A stretch of DNA of 64,000 nucleotides from Xylanimonas ulmi (lineage in GTDB: Bacteria > Actinomycetota > Actinomycetes > Actinomycetales > Cellulomonadaceae): the NCBI RefSeq assembly GCF_004216535.1, contig NZ_SGWX01000001.1, forward strand, positions 1,798,001-1,862,000, read 5' to 3'. Both the position numbers and the translations under genes were made by a program. This document shows positions 1 through 16,681 of the stretch, one piece after another (within the stretch, counting starts at the first letter, position 1; each line of letters opens with the position of its first letter). The notes under the pieces were generated by a model. The model saw only the letters and a list, made by a program, of their open reading frames with translations, ran no database searches and was not told the origin of the DNA.

Positions 1-600
1 CTTCTCGTCACCCATGCCCTGCGGGTCCTGGGCATGGCGACGCCGCAATACGTCTCGCGGCTGACCGGGCTGCCCGAGGGCGAGATCGCCGACGCGCTGG
101 CCTCGGCGCAGCGCGATGACCTCGTGCGCGCCCGCACCGGGCGGCTCGCCGGGTGGTCGCTCACCGCGGCCGGGCGAGTCTGGCATGCCCGCGCGCTCGC
201 CGAGGAGCTGGAGCGCAGCGGTGTGCGTGGCGAGGTGGAGCGCGCGCACGAGGCGTTCGTCGCGCTCAACCAGCCGTTCAAGCGCATCTGCACGAGCTGG
301 CAGGTCAAGGACGCCGTTCCCAACGACCACGCCGACGCCGCGTACGACCGTGCGGTCCTCGAACGGCTTGAGGCCCTGCACCGCGAGGCCATGGGCCTGA
401 CCGGCGGGCTCGCGCACGCGCTGCCACGGTTCGGCTGGTACTCCTCGGCCCTCACCGACGCGCGCGACCGGTTGCTCGGCGGCGACCTCGGTGCGCTGTC
501 GGCGCCCCTGTCCGGCAGCTACCACGACCTGTGGATGGCGCTGCACCAAGACCTGCTCTCGACGCTGGGCCGCGAGCGCTCTGCGAAGGACGGACACTGA
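1..600 (+). CDS. Winged-helix (MarR-like) protein, 5' partial
   Basis: The reading frame is open from the first base, so the true start lies upstream; a Met codon at 34 is internal. The visible N-terminal part (ATPQYVSRLTGLPEGEIADA, then a basic stretch and LTAAGR) looks like a MarR-type winged helix. The rest is an uncharacterised helical region with HEAFVALNQPFKRICTSW and a WYSSALTDARDRLLGG stretch. The stop at 598-600 is 2 nt before the ppdK start, so the two genes are almost certainly co-transcribed and coupled. It could be a regulator or an accessory subunit of the short dikinase. The family is not recognised with certainty. Confidence 0.7.
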   Translation, partial: LLVTHALRVLGMATPQYVSRLTGLPEGEIADALASAQRDDLVRARTGRLAGWSLTAAGRVWHARALAEELERSGVRGEVERAHEAFVALNQPFKRICTSWQVKDAVPNDHADAAYDRAVLERLEALHREAMGLTGGLAHALPRFGWYSSALTDARDRLLGGDLGALSAPLSGSYHDLWMALHQDLLSTLGRERSAKDGH

Positions 601-602
601 TC

Positions 603-2267
603 ATGCTCCGCACCCGTGCCACCCGCCCGCTGCCCGTCGACCAGGCGCCCGGGGACGCCGTCTTCCCGTTCGACCACGCCCACGCCTCGCCGCCGCGCGA
701 GCTGACGGACCTGCTGGGCGGCAAGGGCGCCGGACTGGCCGAGATGACCTCGGCGCTGGGCCTGCCCGTGCCGCCCGGGTTCACCCTCGCGGTGCCGCTG
801 TGCCGCCGGTACCGCGCCGCGGGCTGGCCTGCGGGCCTCGACGCCGCGCTGCGGTCGGCGGTCGCGAGGCTGAGCGAGACGATGGGCCGGTCGTTCGGCG
901 ACCCGGCGGACCCGCTGCTTCTGGCGGTGCGCAGCGGGGCTCCGCGATCCATGCCGGGCATGCTCGACACGGTGCTCAACATCGGGCTCAACGACGAGAC
1001 CGCCCACGCCCTGGCCGAACGATCCGGTGACCCGTCGTTCGCGTGGGACACCTACCAAAGGTTCCTGCACCTGTACGCCACCACCGTCATGGGCGTGCCC
1101 GACGGGCGGCTGCCGCCGCGCGCGGACGCCCGGGCGCAGGATCCGCGGCAGCGGGTCGCCGCCCTCAAGGCGGCCGTCGAGGCCGCGGCGGGCCAGGGCG
1201 TCCCGACCGACCCCGACGTCCAGCTCCGCCAGGCCGTCGAAGCCGTCTTCCGGTCGTGGGACTCCCCGCGCGCCCGCGCGTCTCGGGCCACGGAGGGAGT
1301 CGACGACGACCTGGGCACCGCCGTCAACGTGCAGGCCATGGTGTTCGGCAACGACGGCGCCGACTCGGGCACCGGCGTCGTGTTCACACGCGACCCCACG
1401 ACGGGCCACGACGTGCTCTACGGCGACTACCTGCCCCACGCGCAGGGCGAGGACGTGGTGGCGGGCAAGGCCATGACGCTGCCGATCGCGCGCATGGCCG
1501 AGCACGTGCCGGACGCCCACCGCGACCTGTGCGCCGCGCTGCGGCGCCTGGAGGCCCACTACCGCGACATCTGCGACGTCGAGTTCACGGTCGAGAGGGG
1601 CAGGCTGTGGCTGCTGCAGACGCGCGTCGCGCGGCGCGGAGCGGTCGCCGCGGTGCGCGCGGCCGTGCGCATGACGCACGACGGCGCCATCGCCCTGACC
1701 CCCGCGGAGGCCGTCGCGCGTGTGCCCGCCGACCTGCGGGCCAGAGCCCGGCACGAGGTGCTCGACCAGGAGGGCTGCGCGGTCGAGTCGACGGCGCCCT
1801 CGCTGGGCTCGGGGATCGGCGTCTCCCCCGGGCGCGCGTCCGGCCGGGTCGTGCTGTCGAGCGAGGAGGCCGCCGAGACGGAGGGCGACTACATCCTCGT
1901 GCGCCCCGAGACGAGCCCCGACGACATCGCCGGGATGTCGGCCGCGGCGGGTGTCCTCACGACGACCGGCGGCCTGGTCAGCCACGCGGCGGTGGTGGCC
2001 CGCGGCTGGGGTGTGCCGACCGTCGTCGGCGCGCATCACCTGACGGTCGGCGCCGAGGGCGTCCTCGACGGCGGGCGTGTCGTCGCCCGCGCCGGTGACG
2101 TGATCACGATCGACGGCGCCACCGGGCAGATCTGGCGCGGGGCCGCGGCCGAGCACGCCGAGGCGGCCGACCCCGAGCGGATCCTCGCGAACCGGCTGCC
2201 CGAGCTGGCGGTGCTGGAGCGATGGGCGGGCGCCGACGACCACCGAGACGAGGAGCGAGCCCGATGA
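603..2267 (+). CDS. ppdK: Short pyruvate phosphate dikinase-like protein lacking the PEP/pyruvate barrel
   Basis: The 554-residue product starts at the ATG at 603, directly after the upstream stop; an in-frame ATG at 531 would overlap the upstream gene. The N-terminal ATP-grasp half is clearly PPDK-like (LLGGKGAGLAEM near residue 40; VRSGAPRSMPGMLDTVLNIG; TYQRFLHLYATTVMGV). The phosphohistidine swivel domain follows, with His461 in TTGGLVSHAAVVARG. Full PPDK (about 870-900 residues) continues into a TIM barrel that binds PEP/pyruvate; here the gene stops about 90 residues after the His. Similar short proteins are annotated ppdK in mycobacteria. The acceptor of the phosphoryl group is unknown. 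The stop overlaps the ferredoxin start (ATGA). Confidence 0.85.
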   Translation: MLRTRATRPLPVDQAPGDAVFPFDHAHASPPRELTDLLGGKGAGLAEMTSALGLPVPPGFTLAVPLCRRYRAAGWPAGLDAALRSAVARLSETMGRSFGDPADPLLLAVRSGAPRSMPGMLDTVLNIGLNDETAHALAERSGDPSFAWDTYQRFLHLYATTVMGVPDGRLPPRADARAQDPRQRVAALKAAVEAAAGQGVPTDPDVQLRQAVEAVFRSWDSPRARASRATEGVDDDLGTAVNVQAMVFGNDGADSGTGVVFTRDPTTGHDVLYGDYLPHAQGEDVVAGKAMTLPIARMAEHVPDAHRDLCAALRRLEAHYRDICDVEFTVERGRLWLLQTRVARRGAVAAVRAAVRMTHDGAIALTPAEAVARVPADLRARARHEVLDQEGCAVESTAPSLGSGIGVSPGRASGRVVLSSEEAAETEGDYILVRPETSPDDIAGMSAAAGVLTTTGGLVSHAAVVARGWGVPTVVGAHHLTVGAEGVLDGGRVVARAGDVITIDGATGQIWRGAAAEHAEAADPERILANRLPELAVLERWAGADDHRDEERAR

Positions 2268-2458
2268 GGATCTGTGTGGACCGCGACCGGTGCACCACCC
2301 TCGGCGTGTGCGAGGCGGCGGCGCCCGACGTGTTCGAGATCGACGACGAGGGGACGCTGGTGCTCAAGGTGACGGTCGTCGACGAGGGCAACCGCGAGGC
2401 CGTCGAGGCCGCCGTCGACGCCTGCCCGACCGAGGCGCTGCGCATCGAGGAGTGCTGA
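2264..2458 (+). CDS. Small [3Fe-4S]-type ferredoxin
   Basis: This 64-residue acidic protein has Cys10, Cys16 and Cys53 followed by Pro, with five residues between the first two. That pattern fits the actinobacterial single-cluster ferredoxins (VDxxxC-x5-C ... DACPTEAL) that usually feed cytochrome P450s or Rieske oxygenases. Cys4 and the C-terminal Cys64 are additional. It starts at an ATG overlapping the ppdK stop and is followed 6 nt later by its probable reductase. No P450 or oxygenase gene is in the window, so the electron acceptor is not evident. Confidence 0.88.
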   Translation: MRICVDRDRCTTLGVCEAAAPDVFEIDDEGTLVLKVTVVDEGNREAVEAAVDACPTEALRIEEC

Positions 2459-2464
2459 GCAGCG

Positions 2465-3670
2465 GTGGAGCGCGTCGTGATCGTCGGCGCCGGCCTGGCC
2501 GGGATGCGCGCGGCCCAAGCCGCCCGCAAGGCGGGGTTCGCGGGACGGCTCACGCTCATCGGGGCCGAGCCGCACGCGCCCTACGACCGGCCCACGCTGT
2601 CCAAGGCCTTCCTCGCGGACGCCGGGCCGCTGGACACACCGCTCCTGACCGGGGCCGACCGGATCGCGGACGACCTCGACGCCGAGGTGCTGCTCGGCGC
2701 CGGGGCCAGCGGACTCGACACGCAGGAGCGCGTGGTGAGCGTCGACGGCCGCGAGACGCCCTATGACGCGCTCCTCATCGCCACCGGCGCCCAGGCCCGC
2801 ACCCTGCCGGGGACGGCGGGCCTGGCCGGCGTGCACACCCTGCGCACGGTCGACGACGCCCGCGCCGTGCGCGCACACCTCGACGCCGGAGCGCGCACGG
2901 TGGTGGTCGGCGCGGGGTTCATCGGCGCCGAGGTGGCCTCTGCGGCGCGCAGACGAGGGCTCGACGTGACCATCCTGGAGTCGCTGCCCACCCCGCTGAC
3001 CCGCTCGGTCGGCGCCACCGCGGGGGCGGCACTGGCCGCCCTGCATTCGCGCCATGGCGCCGCGCTGCGCTGCGGCGTCATGGTGGCGGGTTTGGAGGGC
3101 GAGGGGCGCGTCAGGGGGGTGCGCCTCATGGACGGGTCCCTCGTGCGCGCGGACCTCGTGGTCGTCGGGATCGGAGCGACGCCGGACATTACGTGGCTGG
3201 CCGAGTCGGGGCTGCGGCTCGACGGCGGTGTGGTGTGCGACGCGACGCTCGCCACCGGCGCGCCCGGCGTCTACGCCGCCGGGGACGTCGCCCGCTGGGC
3301 CCACCCTCAATTCGGCGTCTCGATGCGCCTGGAGCACTGGACCAACGCCTCCGAGCAGGGCGCCCACGCGATGCGCAACGCGCTCGACCCGCGGGCCGCG
3401 ACCCCGTTTGCGCACGTGCCGTTCTTCTGGTCCGACTGGTACGAGGACCGGATCCAGTTCGTCGGCGTCCCCGACGGCGAGCCCTCCGTCGTCGCGGGCG
3501 GGTGGGACGAGCCCGCCTTCGTCGCGCTGTACCGCACGGGCGACCGCCTCGTCGGCGCCCTGGCCCTCAACCGGCGTGGCGACATCATGAAGTACCGCGC
3601 GCTCATCGCCCGAGGGGCGTCGTGGGCGGACGGACTCGCACTGGCGGCGAGCCGCGTGCGCCCCGCCTGA
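2465..3670 (+). CDS. FAD/NAD(P)H-dependent ferredoxin reductase
   Basis: The 401-residue protein has the layout of rhodocoxin/putidaredoxin reductases. The FAD Rossmann motif VGAGLAGMRAAQAAR is at the extreme N terminus, followed by ATGAQAR, a second dinucleotide motif GAGFIGAEVASAARRRG near residue 145, and the FAD-binding YAAGDVARW near residue 275. A C-terminal reductase domain follows (FFWSDWYEDRIQFVG). The start is a GTG at 2465. Together with the adjacent ferredoxin it forms an NAD(P)H to FAD to Fe-S electron transfer pair. Its co-transcription with a truncated PPDK is unusual. It converges on truB. Confidence 0.9.
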   Translation: MERVVIVGAGLAGMRAAQAARKAGFAGRLTLIGAEPHAPYDRPTLSKAFLADAGPLDTPLLTGADRIADDLDAEVLLGAGASGLDTQERVVSVDGRETPYDALLIATGAQARTLPGTAGLAGVHTLRTVDDARAVRAHLDAGARTVVVGAGFIGAEVASAARRRGLDVTILESLPTPLTRSVGATAGAALAALHSRHGAALRCGVMVAGLEGEGRVRGVRLMDGSLVRADLVVVGIGATPDITWLAESGLRLDGGVVCDATLATGAPGVYAAGDVARWAHPQFGVSMRLEHWTNASEQGAHAMRNALDPRAATPFAHVPFFWSDWYEDRIQFVGVPDGEPSVVAGGWDEPAFVALYRTGDRLVGALALNRRGDIMKYRALIARGASWADGLALAASRVRPA

Positions 3671-14776: not shown

Positions 14777-16681
14777 TCAGCCCAGGTCGAGCGGGGTGAG
14801 GGTGAGGTAGTCGTCGAGCGTGCCGTCGTTCAGGCAGGTCTCGATGATGCGCCGGCCGAGCGGGTGCAGCTCGGGAGACAGGAACTGGCGCAGCTCGTCC
14901 TTGAAGAACTCGGTGATGATCGCGGCGCCGATGTCGTAGGCCTCGACCCCCACCTTGGACTGCAGTTCGGGGCGCAGCAGCGACGGACGCACCTGCTGGC
15001 CGTCGATCTTCATCTCCCACATCGCGTAGCCGAACAGCGGGCAGCGCGCCGGGACGAGCGAGTCACGCCGGATGTGGCCCTGACCGCGGCGGGCCAGGTA
15101 CTCACGCGTGAGCCATTCGGCGGCGAAGTCGACCCGGTAGGCGCCGATGTGCTGGTTGGGCGTGAGCACCAGACGCGTCTTGGGCGCTGCGAGGATCTGC
15201 TCGAGCAGCAGGTTGGCCGCGCCGACCTTGGTGTTGGTCGAGAACGGCCAGAACGAGCCGACGCCCTCGGCGACCATGCCGCCGTGCGCGATGACCGCAG
15301 CCTCGGCCGCGGTCGCCCCGATCGACGGGTTCTTGTCGCCGCGCGGTGTGACCAGGCGCCACAGCCACGCGAGCGACGGCGGGATGACGTGCATGAGGCC
15401 CATGACCCCGTAGGTCGGCTGATCCGCGGTGCACGCCGGCATGCGCACGCCGAACGTGCGCACGTCGACCTGCTGCGGCTCGTCGACGATGCCCTTGATC
15501 TGGCGGCGCGGGATGACCACACGCGGGTTCGAGCAGGGCTTGCCGCTCGCGTCGCGCACGTGCTCCCACGGCAGGCAGGTCGCGCCGGGCGTGCCCTCGA
15601 TGTTGAGGAAGATGAGCGGCTCGGCCGGGTGGATGATGGCGCGCTCGAGCTGCGGGTCCTCGCCGTAGCAGGTGAGGTTGTCGACGCGCACGAACCAGCC
15701 GTCCTCGGCGTCGGCGACCGTCATCTTGCCGCTCGCCGGCCGCTGCAGGGCCGGGTGGCACAGCGTCATGTCGTCAGTGACGGGCTCGAGGCGCGAGGTC
15801 TCCGAGAGCGTGATCGCGTACGGCTCGTCGGTCACCACGTTGGTGCCGAGCAGCACGCGTCCGTCCTCCTCACGCCGCAGCTCCTGGCACATCTCGGACT
15901 TGCCGCCACCCGAGGCGCCCTCGTGCATGATGACGGTCTCGTTCTCGTACGGCGTCGTCACGCGCACCGAGGAGGCGTGGGCGGTCAGCCAGCCCTCGTA
16001 GGCGCCGACGTCGAGCAGCGCGGAGAACACGCCCTTCTTGGCGCTCGGGCCGGGGTAGAGGTTGTAGGCGAAGATCTCGTGCAGCGTCTGCGTGCGGTCG
16101 TGAACCACGACCTGCTTGCCCGCGAAGTGGGTGTGCCGGAACGGCGGGGCCAGGTAGAGGATCGAGCGGGGCGCGAAGGGGCCGAGCTCGTCGAAGGTGC
16201 AAAAGCCCTGCAGGTCCACCAGCGCGCAGGCGAAGAACGCGGTGCTCTTCGGCACGACGGCCAGCGACGGGCTGCCCAGGTGCGGTCCACCGGCCTTGAA
16301 GGGCACGACGATGAGGTCCTGGCCAGCCAGCCAGTCGAGCGTCTCCTGCTTCACGGGCGCGAAGGGGCCGTAGTCGTCGGCGAACCGCGGCTTGTCGGAG
16401 GGCAGGTCGTCGCCGATGCGCATGCAGTCGGGGTCGCGCCGGCGGATGTAGTCCTCGGGGTAGTTGACGGCGATGCCGTTGCGGCACCGCACCACGTCGG
16501 CCTCCTTGACCGAGCCGTCGCCGGGGACGTCGAAGACGACGTCGAACGTGTCGGCCCCGTCAGGGCCGAGGGAGAGCTCAAAGAGCTCTGAGCGGCTGGT
16601 CGGGATCGTGATGCTGCGCGCAGCCTCAAGACACTCGGCCAGGTATGGGGGAAGCGTGAGCTTCCGGAGCACGTCGTCCAT
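14777..16681 (-). CDS. PEPCK-like kinase of unknown function (DUF4914-like)
   Basis: The 634-residue protein has a P-loop GASGGGKSE (Lys261, Ser262) after VIMHEGA. Its general order resembles PEP carboxykinase-type kinases: CPWEHVR-like loops, FLNIEGTPGATCLPWEHV, SIGATAAEAAV. It lacks the ACGKTN loop and other hallmarks of true GTP-PEPCK, so I do not call it pckG. I believe it belongs to the DUF4914 family, whose substrate is not known. A free Cys-rich stretch (MPACTADQPTYGV) is conserved-looking. The ATG at 16681 starts the first family-like segment (MDDVLRKLTLPPYLAECLEA); an upstream extension to 16831 is low-complexity. A GntR-like palindrome lies about 140 bp upstream. Confidence 0.75.
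   Translation of the reverse strand: MDDVLRKLTLPPYLAECLEAARSITIPTSRSELFELSLGPDGADTFDVVFDVPGDGSVKEADVVRCRNGIAVNYPEDYIRRRDPDCMRIGDDLPSDKPRFADDYGPFAPVKQETLDWLAGQDLIVVPFKAGGPHLGSPSLAVVPKSTAFFACALVDLQGFCTFDELGPFAPRSILYLAPPFRHTHFAGKQVVVHDRTQTLHEIFAYNLYPGPSAKKGVFSALLDVGAYEGWLTAHASSVRVTTPYENETVIMHEGASGGGKSEMCQELRREEDGRVLLGTNVVTDEPYAITLSETSRLEPVTDDMTLCHPALQRPASGKMTVADAEDGWFVRVDNLTCYGEDPQLERAIIHPAEPLIFLNIEGTPGATCLPWEHVRDASGKPCSNPRVVIPRRQIKGIVDEPQQVDVRTFGVRMPACTADQPTYGVMGLMHVIPPSLAWLWRLVTPRGDKNPSIGATAAEAAVIAHGGMVAEGVGSFWPFSTNTKVGAANLLLEQILAAPKTRLVLTPNQHIGAYRVDFAAEWLTREYLARRGQGHIRRDSLVPARCPLFGYAMWEMKIDGQQVRPSLLRPELQSKVGVEAYDIGAAIITEFFKDELRQFLSPELHPLGRRIIETCLNDGTLDDYLTLTPLDLG

Follow-up and report, generated by a model that had tools for sequence, protein, structure and literature searches.

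What does a pyruvate, phosphate dikinase (PPDK) phosphorylate when it has lost its phosphoenolpyruvate (PEP)/pyruvate barrel, and why should it be encoded together with a redox chain? The question arises at the start of the window, a 64,000-nucleotide stretch of the Xylanimonas ulmi genome, where an operon encodes a winged-helix protein, a barrel-less PPDK, a ferredoxin and a ferredoxin reductase. A preliminary description of these genes had found no obvious acceptor for the kinase. We find that a protein of the acceptor/swivel type of rifampin phosphotransferase (RPH), here called CreH-like, is encoded 3.1 kb before base 1; the edge of the window, which cuts through the cluster, had hidden it. 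Since the PPDK sits in a conserved cytochrome P450 cluster that also encodes this substrate-binding protein and, as a constant partner, the winged-helix protein, it is probably the half of a split small-molecule dikinase that uses ATP and donates the phosphoryl group, with the CreH-like protein as its acceptor and the winged-helix protein as a third component. Gene content, domain make-up, conserved histidines, synteny, fusions, linkage and co-occurrence support this assignment.

The operon occupies the first 3,670 nucleotides of the window:

1..600, + strand: winged-helix partner gene, Rv1126c-type by gene context; TGA at 598-600, 5' end cut by base 1
603..2267, + strand: barrel-less PPDK, 554 aa; ATP-grasp and swivel with phosphohistidine motif; NF004531/VadK family
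2264..2458, + strand: single-cluster ferredoxin, 64 aa; ATG at 2264, stop at 2456-2458
2465..3670, + strand: flavin adenine dinucleotide (FAD) ferredoxin reductase, 401 aa; GTG start at 2465

Both the frames and the DNA of the junctions confirm the gaps of 2, -4 and 6 nt given in the preliminary description, with an ATGA overlap at the PPDK/ferredoxin junction. The winged-helix gene is present as described but not complete, as its probable start, an ATG preceded by AGGAGG, lies 42 bp upstream of base 1. The PPDK frame, from an ATG at 603 to a stop at 2265-2267, does lack the barrel: its only Pfam domains are PF01326 and PF00391, and its match to a clostridial PPDK of 873 aa (398 bits) covers residues 8-510 of that protein. 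The frame did not match the barrel of a second, full-length PPDK that the genome encodes elsewhere (G000:C1:2956262 on). A barrel hidden by a frameshift was considered and rejected, because the ferredoxin gene already begins ahead of the PPDK stop codon. By sequence the PPDK falls into the family of VadK (Mycobacterium tuberculosis Rv1127c), passing the NF004531 model narrowly (460.4 bits against a threshold of 456; barrel-bearing PPDKs can also pass). Formation of phosphohistidine from ATP, as proposed earlier, would be expected from the VadK precedent.

The P450 that had been suspected upstream of base 1 was found there, along with dehydrogenases, a regulator, a coenzyme A (CoA) ligase and a phosphatase. 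These genes are given in the coordinates of the enclosing locus L007, in which window base 1 is base 16001 (window coordinate = L007 coordinate minus 16000); SDR stands for short-chain dehydrogenase/reductase:

L007 6046-6792, - strand: SDR
L007 6789-7565, - strand: SDR
L007 7593-8381, - strand: SDR
L007 8433-9890, - strand: aldehyde dehydrogenase
L007 9887-11095, - strand: P450
L007 11123-12865, - strand: CreH-like protein, 580 aa; acceptor and swivel part of RPH, without the ATP-grasp
L007 12923-13696, - strand: TetR regulator
L007 13814-15331, + strand: acyl-CoA ligase
L007 15341-16600, + strand: histidine phosphatase reading into the winged-helix part

The assignment of the CreH-like protein as acceptor was made by sequence. 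Its single Pfam domain is a swivel (PF00391, residues 503-573); solved RPH chains match residues 363-578 (89 bits), and the RedH profile aligns over its positions 365-878 with residues 69-578. Full-length profiles of the RPH family meet the protein only past their ATP-grasp, from position 365 for RedH and from 479 or later for the others. A single-sequence AlphaFold2 model reached a predicted local distance difference test score (pLDDT) of 37.8, too low for a conclusion on the fold. Both swivels that a relay would use are intact: the donor histidine is kept in 68 of 70 barrel-less rows, with the remaining two stopping short of the site, and the acceptor histidine in all 35 CreH-like rows. Because both are kept, a relay is favoured over a relic.

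The most constant partner of the barrel-less PPDK is the winged-helix protein. Its gene is present at 68 of 71 barrel-less loci, within 1 kb of the PPDK in 61 of them, versus 0 of 24 full-length PPDK loci (p 1.5e-19; relatedness of the genomes was ignored in all Fisher p values). The 71 loci are a non-random set, 14 from CreH-positive genomes or clusters and 57 from the better NF004531 matches (one of the latter, L120, is from a genome already known to be CreH-positive); the 24 controls were chosen by their long open frame and scored with the identical profile. That profile, from which a fused PPDK row was excluded, was built partly from the very loci counted, and a seed profile from 11 clusters had already recovered the gene in most of them. 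Of 59 winged-helix places in 178 genomes, 44 lie, by hand count, within 10 kb of an NF004531 place among the matches listed, nine could not be judged among those matches and six are in genomes with no such match. The nine include G602:C50 and G735:C46, where the PPDK bears a barrel, and G645, where a PPDK piece lies beside the gene. The winged-helix gene is not exclusive to barrel-less PPDK loci.

Fusions tie the three components together. Donor and winged helix share one open frame, with the winged helix in the barrel's place, in L094, L096, L097 and L152 and in seven Mycobacteriaceae loci (L199, L200, L203, L208, L210, L211 and L212). In L126 the CreH-like protein and the winged helix form a single open frame, and L130 has a permuted swivel-acceptor-winged helix in one frame and a PPDK that shares its frame with a ferredoxin. 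Nine residues of the winged-helix protein (F86, W100, Q101, A154, G161, H175, W178, H182 and R193), all behind the winged-helix part, are invariant in 66 of 66 rows. An AlphaFold2 model from a two-sequence alignment (mean pLDDT 82.8) supports the winged-helix call; Foldseek with this model returned partial matches to winged-helix proteins, all of them weaker than E 0.001. In the window's cluster the winged-helix frame stays open upstream through the histidine phosphatase, which starts 660 bp before base 1. As no stop lies between them, a phosphatase-winged-helix fusion protein is possible; the shared open frame recurs in G446, and L064, L091 and L092 have separate open reading frames (ORFs).

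Linkage of donor and acceptor was assessed in the family of Amycolatopsis orientalis (n=297), where a PPDK-type gene lies within 14 kb of the CreH-like gene in 17 of 18 CreH-positive genomes. The PPDK is barrel-less in 12 (G595, G769, G857, G758, G742, G688, G711, G693, G746, G866, G807 and G634), a truncated frame in one (G771), a fragment in one (G645) and barrel-bearing with a winged-helix neighbour in three. In G645 (L222, L105) the C-terminal piece lies beside the CreH-like gene and the N-terminal piece about 0.24 Mb away, next to a winged helix, a phosphatase and a P450; the split looks like the result of a rearrangement that broke the cluster apart. A CreH-like gene is also present in the stretch at 14 of the 57 further barrel-less loci (L117-L173), compared with 0 of 24 full-length loci (p 0.008).

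Several observations weigh against the split-dikinase assignment. No CreH-like gene was seen in the stretch at the remaining 43 of the 57 barrel-less loci. In the 18th CreH-positive genome, G858, the nearest barrel-less PPDK among the matches listed is 86 kb from the CreH-like gene, and G884 has a cluster-clade PPDK and the cluster P450 with no CreH-like gene in about 47 kb. In G602, G735 and G833 a divergent barrel-bearing PPDK has a winged-helix gene as its neighbour and lies about 11 kb from the CreH-like gene, and in four further CreH-positive genomes (G036, G252, G313 and G113) only a barrel-bearing PPDK was found among the NF004531 matches. Because of these seven genomes, loss of the barrel does not seem to be a requirement. 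Finally, HpeI, a characterised donor, has no swivel, whereas the window PPDK has its own. The PPDKs of G602, G735 and G833 (L213 9770-12978, L214 7491-11083 and L215 11995-15572), which are alike in size and scores and lie outside both the control set and the PPDK tree, possibly represent the state before barrel loss. The barrel-bearing cases weaken the claim that only barrel-less PPDKs take part and strengthen the linkage of CreH-like protein, PPDK and winged helix, leaving our overall estimate unchanged.

The four genomes G036, G252, G313 and G113 (L044-L052) encode one to three CreH-like proteins each and, in 4 of 4, an NF004531-type PPDK with barrel; G113 has an additional weak PF01326 match. 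Proteins of about 1500 aa with two tandem CreH-like units were seen in L053, L054 and L056, those of L053 and L054 also with an N-terminal PPDK_N match. Another acceptor-like domain, whose swivel is divergent (SHLGI), occurs at L130 10003-12402 and, as two genes, at L164 10675-12573.

The set recurs beyond this strain, but what is conserved is not these four genes by themselves. Winged-helix gene and barrel-less PPDK are paired most tightly; ferredoxin and reductase travel with P450 clusters. A contig search for relatives returned one, A. orientalis DSM 43388 (71%). There the 13 genes of the cluster keep their arrangement, with identities of 51-72%, and two genes are extra: a thiolase that separates PPDK from ferredoxin and an acyl-CoA dehydrogenase that follows the reductase. 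Uniqueness to one strain, named earlier as a ground for doubt, can thus be discarded, and because the gene order recurs in Amycolatopsis the four-gene arrangement is not due to chance. The 13-gene synteny is also found in L070, L091 and L092. A core of CreH-like protein, PPDK, winged helix, phosphatase, CoA ligase, P450, one SDR (SDR1) and TetR is shared by L007, L064, L070, L091, L092, L099, L102, L103 and L104; the stretch of L106 shows all of these except the CoA ligase. CreH-like matches were found in 18 of 297 genomes of the A. orientalis family (1e-60 or better), in 37 of 396 genomes of a phylum sample (at least as good as E 1e-30, with many partial or weak matches) and in 2 of 200 genomes of the window's own family, both of the window's genus (11 members listed). 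Both of these clusters sit between the same housekeeping genes, truB on one side and ribF, rpsO and pnp on the other, as named by reading.

In a tree of 94 PPDK sequences the 24 full-length proteins form a clade (support 0.943) and, with the root placed on it, the 70 barrel-less proteins form one group (support 0.815). Ten cluster PPDKs (L007, L070, L130, L165, L064, L091, L092, L099, L104 and L106) make up a clade with support 1.0. The PPDKs of L102 and L103 are placed outside it; judged from the tree, therefore, the same cluster seems to have recruited its donor twice.

The gene content would fit the following sequence of steps. The PPDK ATP-grasp would phosphorylate its own swivel histidine, as published for VadK, and the phosphoryl group would then pass to the CreH-like swivel histidine in a two-swivel relay or directly to a substrate in the CreH-like acceptor domain, with the winged-helix protein bridging donor and acceptor or regulating the pair. 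The substrate may be a hydrophobic alcohol or phenol that accepts the phosphoryl group on its hydroxyl. The P450, fed by ferredoxin and reductase, could oxidise the phosphorylated compound, much as the P450 CreJ oxidises a phosphorylated substrate, and dehydrogenases may act next; the histidine phosphatase would remove the phosphate and the product would enter CoA-dependent degradation. Small-molecule phosphorylation for an oxygenase pathway, suggested in the preliminary description, thus looks plausible from the P450 cluster around the PPDK.

The P450 and one SDR give a hint that the substrate is hydrophobic, though not of its identity. The best solved matches of the P450 are two chains of CYP125MRCA, by its name a reconstructed ancestor (353 and 350 bits), followed at about 245-250 bits by natural P450s including CYP125, CYP124 and CYP142. 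One SDR barely passes the coniferyl-alcohol dehydrogenase model (244.7 versus 242), and its best matches are 3-alpha-hydroxysteroid dehydrogenases. As these similarities are generic, they leave open a sterol, a terpenoid or an alkylphenol.

A variant that overlaps with the relay just described would have the CreH-like swivel dock on the PPDK ATP-grasp while the PPDK's own swivel stays passive. Docking of this kind is the mechanism proposed for HpeHI and PpsAB (PMC12167813). We consider the variant rather doubtful for the window PPDK, given that all 68 barrel-less rows that reach the site keep the donor histidine and that His422 of VadK is phosphorylated (PMC13400623).

More distant from a split dikinase is the idea that the PPDK is a VadK-like regulatory histidine kinase, which controls enzymes by binding or phosphorylating them, and that its CreH-like neighbour uses another donor. 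VadK was published as a regulator, on the basis of co-immunoprecipitated methylcitrate-cycle enzymes and of growth and flux phenotypes (PMC13400623), and the many barrel-less loci with no CreH-like gene nearby fit such a role; both points count against a dikinase. The published prediction of a VadK-MCS complex has an interface predicted template modelling score (ipTM) of 0.36, the window PPDK sits in a catabolic P450 cluster, and PPDKs are connected with acceptor proteins by linkage, fusions and co-occurrence, which makes a regulatory kinase unlikely here. That the PPDK is a decaying remnant, or is served in trans by the barrel of another protein, is highly improbable: the genome does encode the full-length PPDK and a protein laid out like enzyme I of the phosphotransferase system (L063, which carries PEP-utilisers_N, a swivel and a PEP-binding barrel and lies about 0.76 Mb away), but the cluster-linked protein is RPH-like, for which reason both were set aside as partners, the frame is open and conserved in several genera, the 70 barrel-less genes group together in the rooted tree and none of the PF01326 and NF004531 matches in A. 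orientalis is a full-length PPDK.

If the window PPDK is the donor of a split dikinase, the same may hold for VadK. The two share the missing barrel, the swivel histidine, the NF004531 family and the winged-helix neighbour: in mycobacterial L117-L119 the PPDK adjoins a winged-helix gene, of 201 aa in L117 and L119, and the window protein was placed in the Rv1126c family by gene order and length, not by the Rv1126c sequence. They differ in that VadK was published as a methylcitrate-cycle regulator, whereas the window PPDK is encoded alongside an acceptor protein in a catabolic P450 cluster. VadK is reported to autophosphorylate at His422, to interact with methylcitrate enzymes and to be needed for disease in mouse models; to keep it soluble it was produced together with Rv1126c, and a 2 M NaCl wash served to separate the two (PMC13400623). 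No small-molecule acceptor was seen in the available part of that paper.

A mycobacterial acceptor candidate was found in L037, an 852-aa protein combining an SDR with a CreH-like part, which is Rv2047c-type by its domains and a Pks12-like neighbour. Among 301 Mycobacteriaceae, 23 have an L037-type acceptor (1e-40) and 57 an NF004531 match (1e-100), some of them long frames that may have a barrel. All 20 genomes with the acceptor at E <= 9.2e-90 have an NF004531 gene, and the three weak ones do not. In 11 of the 20 a distance of 3-23 kb on one contig separates the two genes; in four they are more than 1 Mb from each other, and five have them on different contigs. The converse fails, as 37 NF004531 genomes have no L037-type acceptor at that cut-off, including G1055 with its high-scoring PPDK. 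In L205, L206 and L207 the SDR-CreH gene directly follows an ORF of 4154-4174 aa in which two ketosynthase motifs occur, and L197 unites winged helix, barrel-less PPDK, Pks12-like synthase and SDR-CreH in one locus; the motif was absent from the ORFs listed in the other 10 of 14 genomes surveyed. A family-2 glycosyltransferase, which we take to be Ppm1, is encoded near the SDR-CreH gene of L205, and similar ORFs occur in L206 and L207.

Transposon data gave ppdK, rv2047c and pks12 a similar requirement over six iron conditions, a pattern shared by other genes such as mmpL5, and the authors suggested that Rv2047c might act in mycoketide synthesis (PMC7058343). A 2012 review stated that no enzymes had been identified for the hydrolysis, reduction, phosphorylation and mannosylation of mycoketide (PMC3318773). 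We put forward, tentatively and as somewhat short of an even chance, that VadK-family barrel-less PPDKs are donors of a three-component dikinase for hydrophobic alcohols, for example lipids, and not primarily protein-regulating kinases. The winged-helix protein would be the adaptor, the acceptors would be interchangeable and a two-histidine relay is possible. In mycobacteria the acceptor would be Rv2047c, encoded directly after pks12, and the whole system would account for the unassigned phosphorylation, and perhaps for the reduction as well, on the way to mannosyl-phosphomycoketide. A literature search for Rv2047c together with Rv1127c gave PMC7058343 alone, the two VadK papers being without Rv2047c, and among the 20 papers listed by another search PMC7058343 was again the only one to mention Rv2047c. 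Neither returned a proposal of a VadK-Rv2047c kinase, most subscription journals lying outside their coverage. The proposal offers VadK an alternative role and the mycoketide phosphorylation step a candidate.

Some features around these clusters stand apart from the kinase. The flanks of the window's cluster, with ribF/rpsO/pnp and truB/rbfA/infB sides (L007 4619-5695; window 3729 on; names by reading), suggest an island. A promoter and terminator scan of its divergent region found none. Genes for a phenol-hydroxylase-type monooxygenase component and reductase adjoin the A. orientalis cluster (L064 18747-21701). An ecdysteroid-kinase-like/APH phosphotransferase gene lies downstream of the CreH-like gene in L104 (10964-12061), with similar-looking ORFs in L102 and L103. 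Y_phosphatase3 genes near barrel-less PPDK genes (L199 15222-15995, L103 18367-19146) perhaps take the role of the histidine phosphatase. The X. ulmi genome has an additional swivel place, a 1118-aa frame at G000:C1:1178861.

How does this system compare with those already described? A literature search on PPDK together with P450 terms returned no paper that contained four of the five terms. The pairing of a kinase with a redox chain, called unusual in the preliminary description, is real, but it has a precedent in the cre operon of Corynebacterium glutamicum, which encodes the kinase CreHI, the class I P450 system CreE/CreF/CreJ, the phosphohydrolase CreD and the dehydrogenases CreC and CreG (PMC7764795). 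Both loci bring together kinase, P450, ferredoxin, reductase, phosphatase and dehydrogenases, a likeness by enzyme class only, as cre was compared by description and not with the CreH, CreI and CreJ sequences; the window P450, unlike that of cre, is nearest the CYP125 group. With RPH, a single chain with its own ATP-grasp, the CreH-like protein shares the part after the ATP-grasp; with canonical PPDK the window PPDK shares ATP-grasp and swivel but not the barrel. HpeHI, CreHI and PpsAB, at the start of catabolic pathways, likewise encode the ATP-grasp apart from acceptor and swivel (PMC12167813, PMC9618137). As in HpeHI, the ATP-grasp is separate (PF01326 in the PPDK only, PF00391 alone in the CreH-like protein), and RPH profiles and chains place a rifampin-binding-like domain and a swivel histidine in the acceptor. 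The donor differs, being PPDK-type with its own PF00391 instead of an RPH-type ATP-grasp without a swivel, and the window system adds a conserved winged-helix component, a CoA ligase and SDRs. Because of this one difference in donor type, we regard it as a variant, a split dikinase with a VadK-type donor. The barrel-less PPDK thereby gains a candidate acceptor and a third component, its encoding with a P450 redox chain would be explained, and split small-molecule dikinases would extend to PPDK-type donors.

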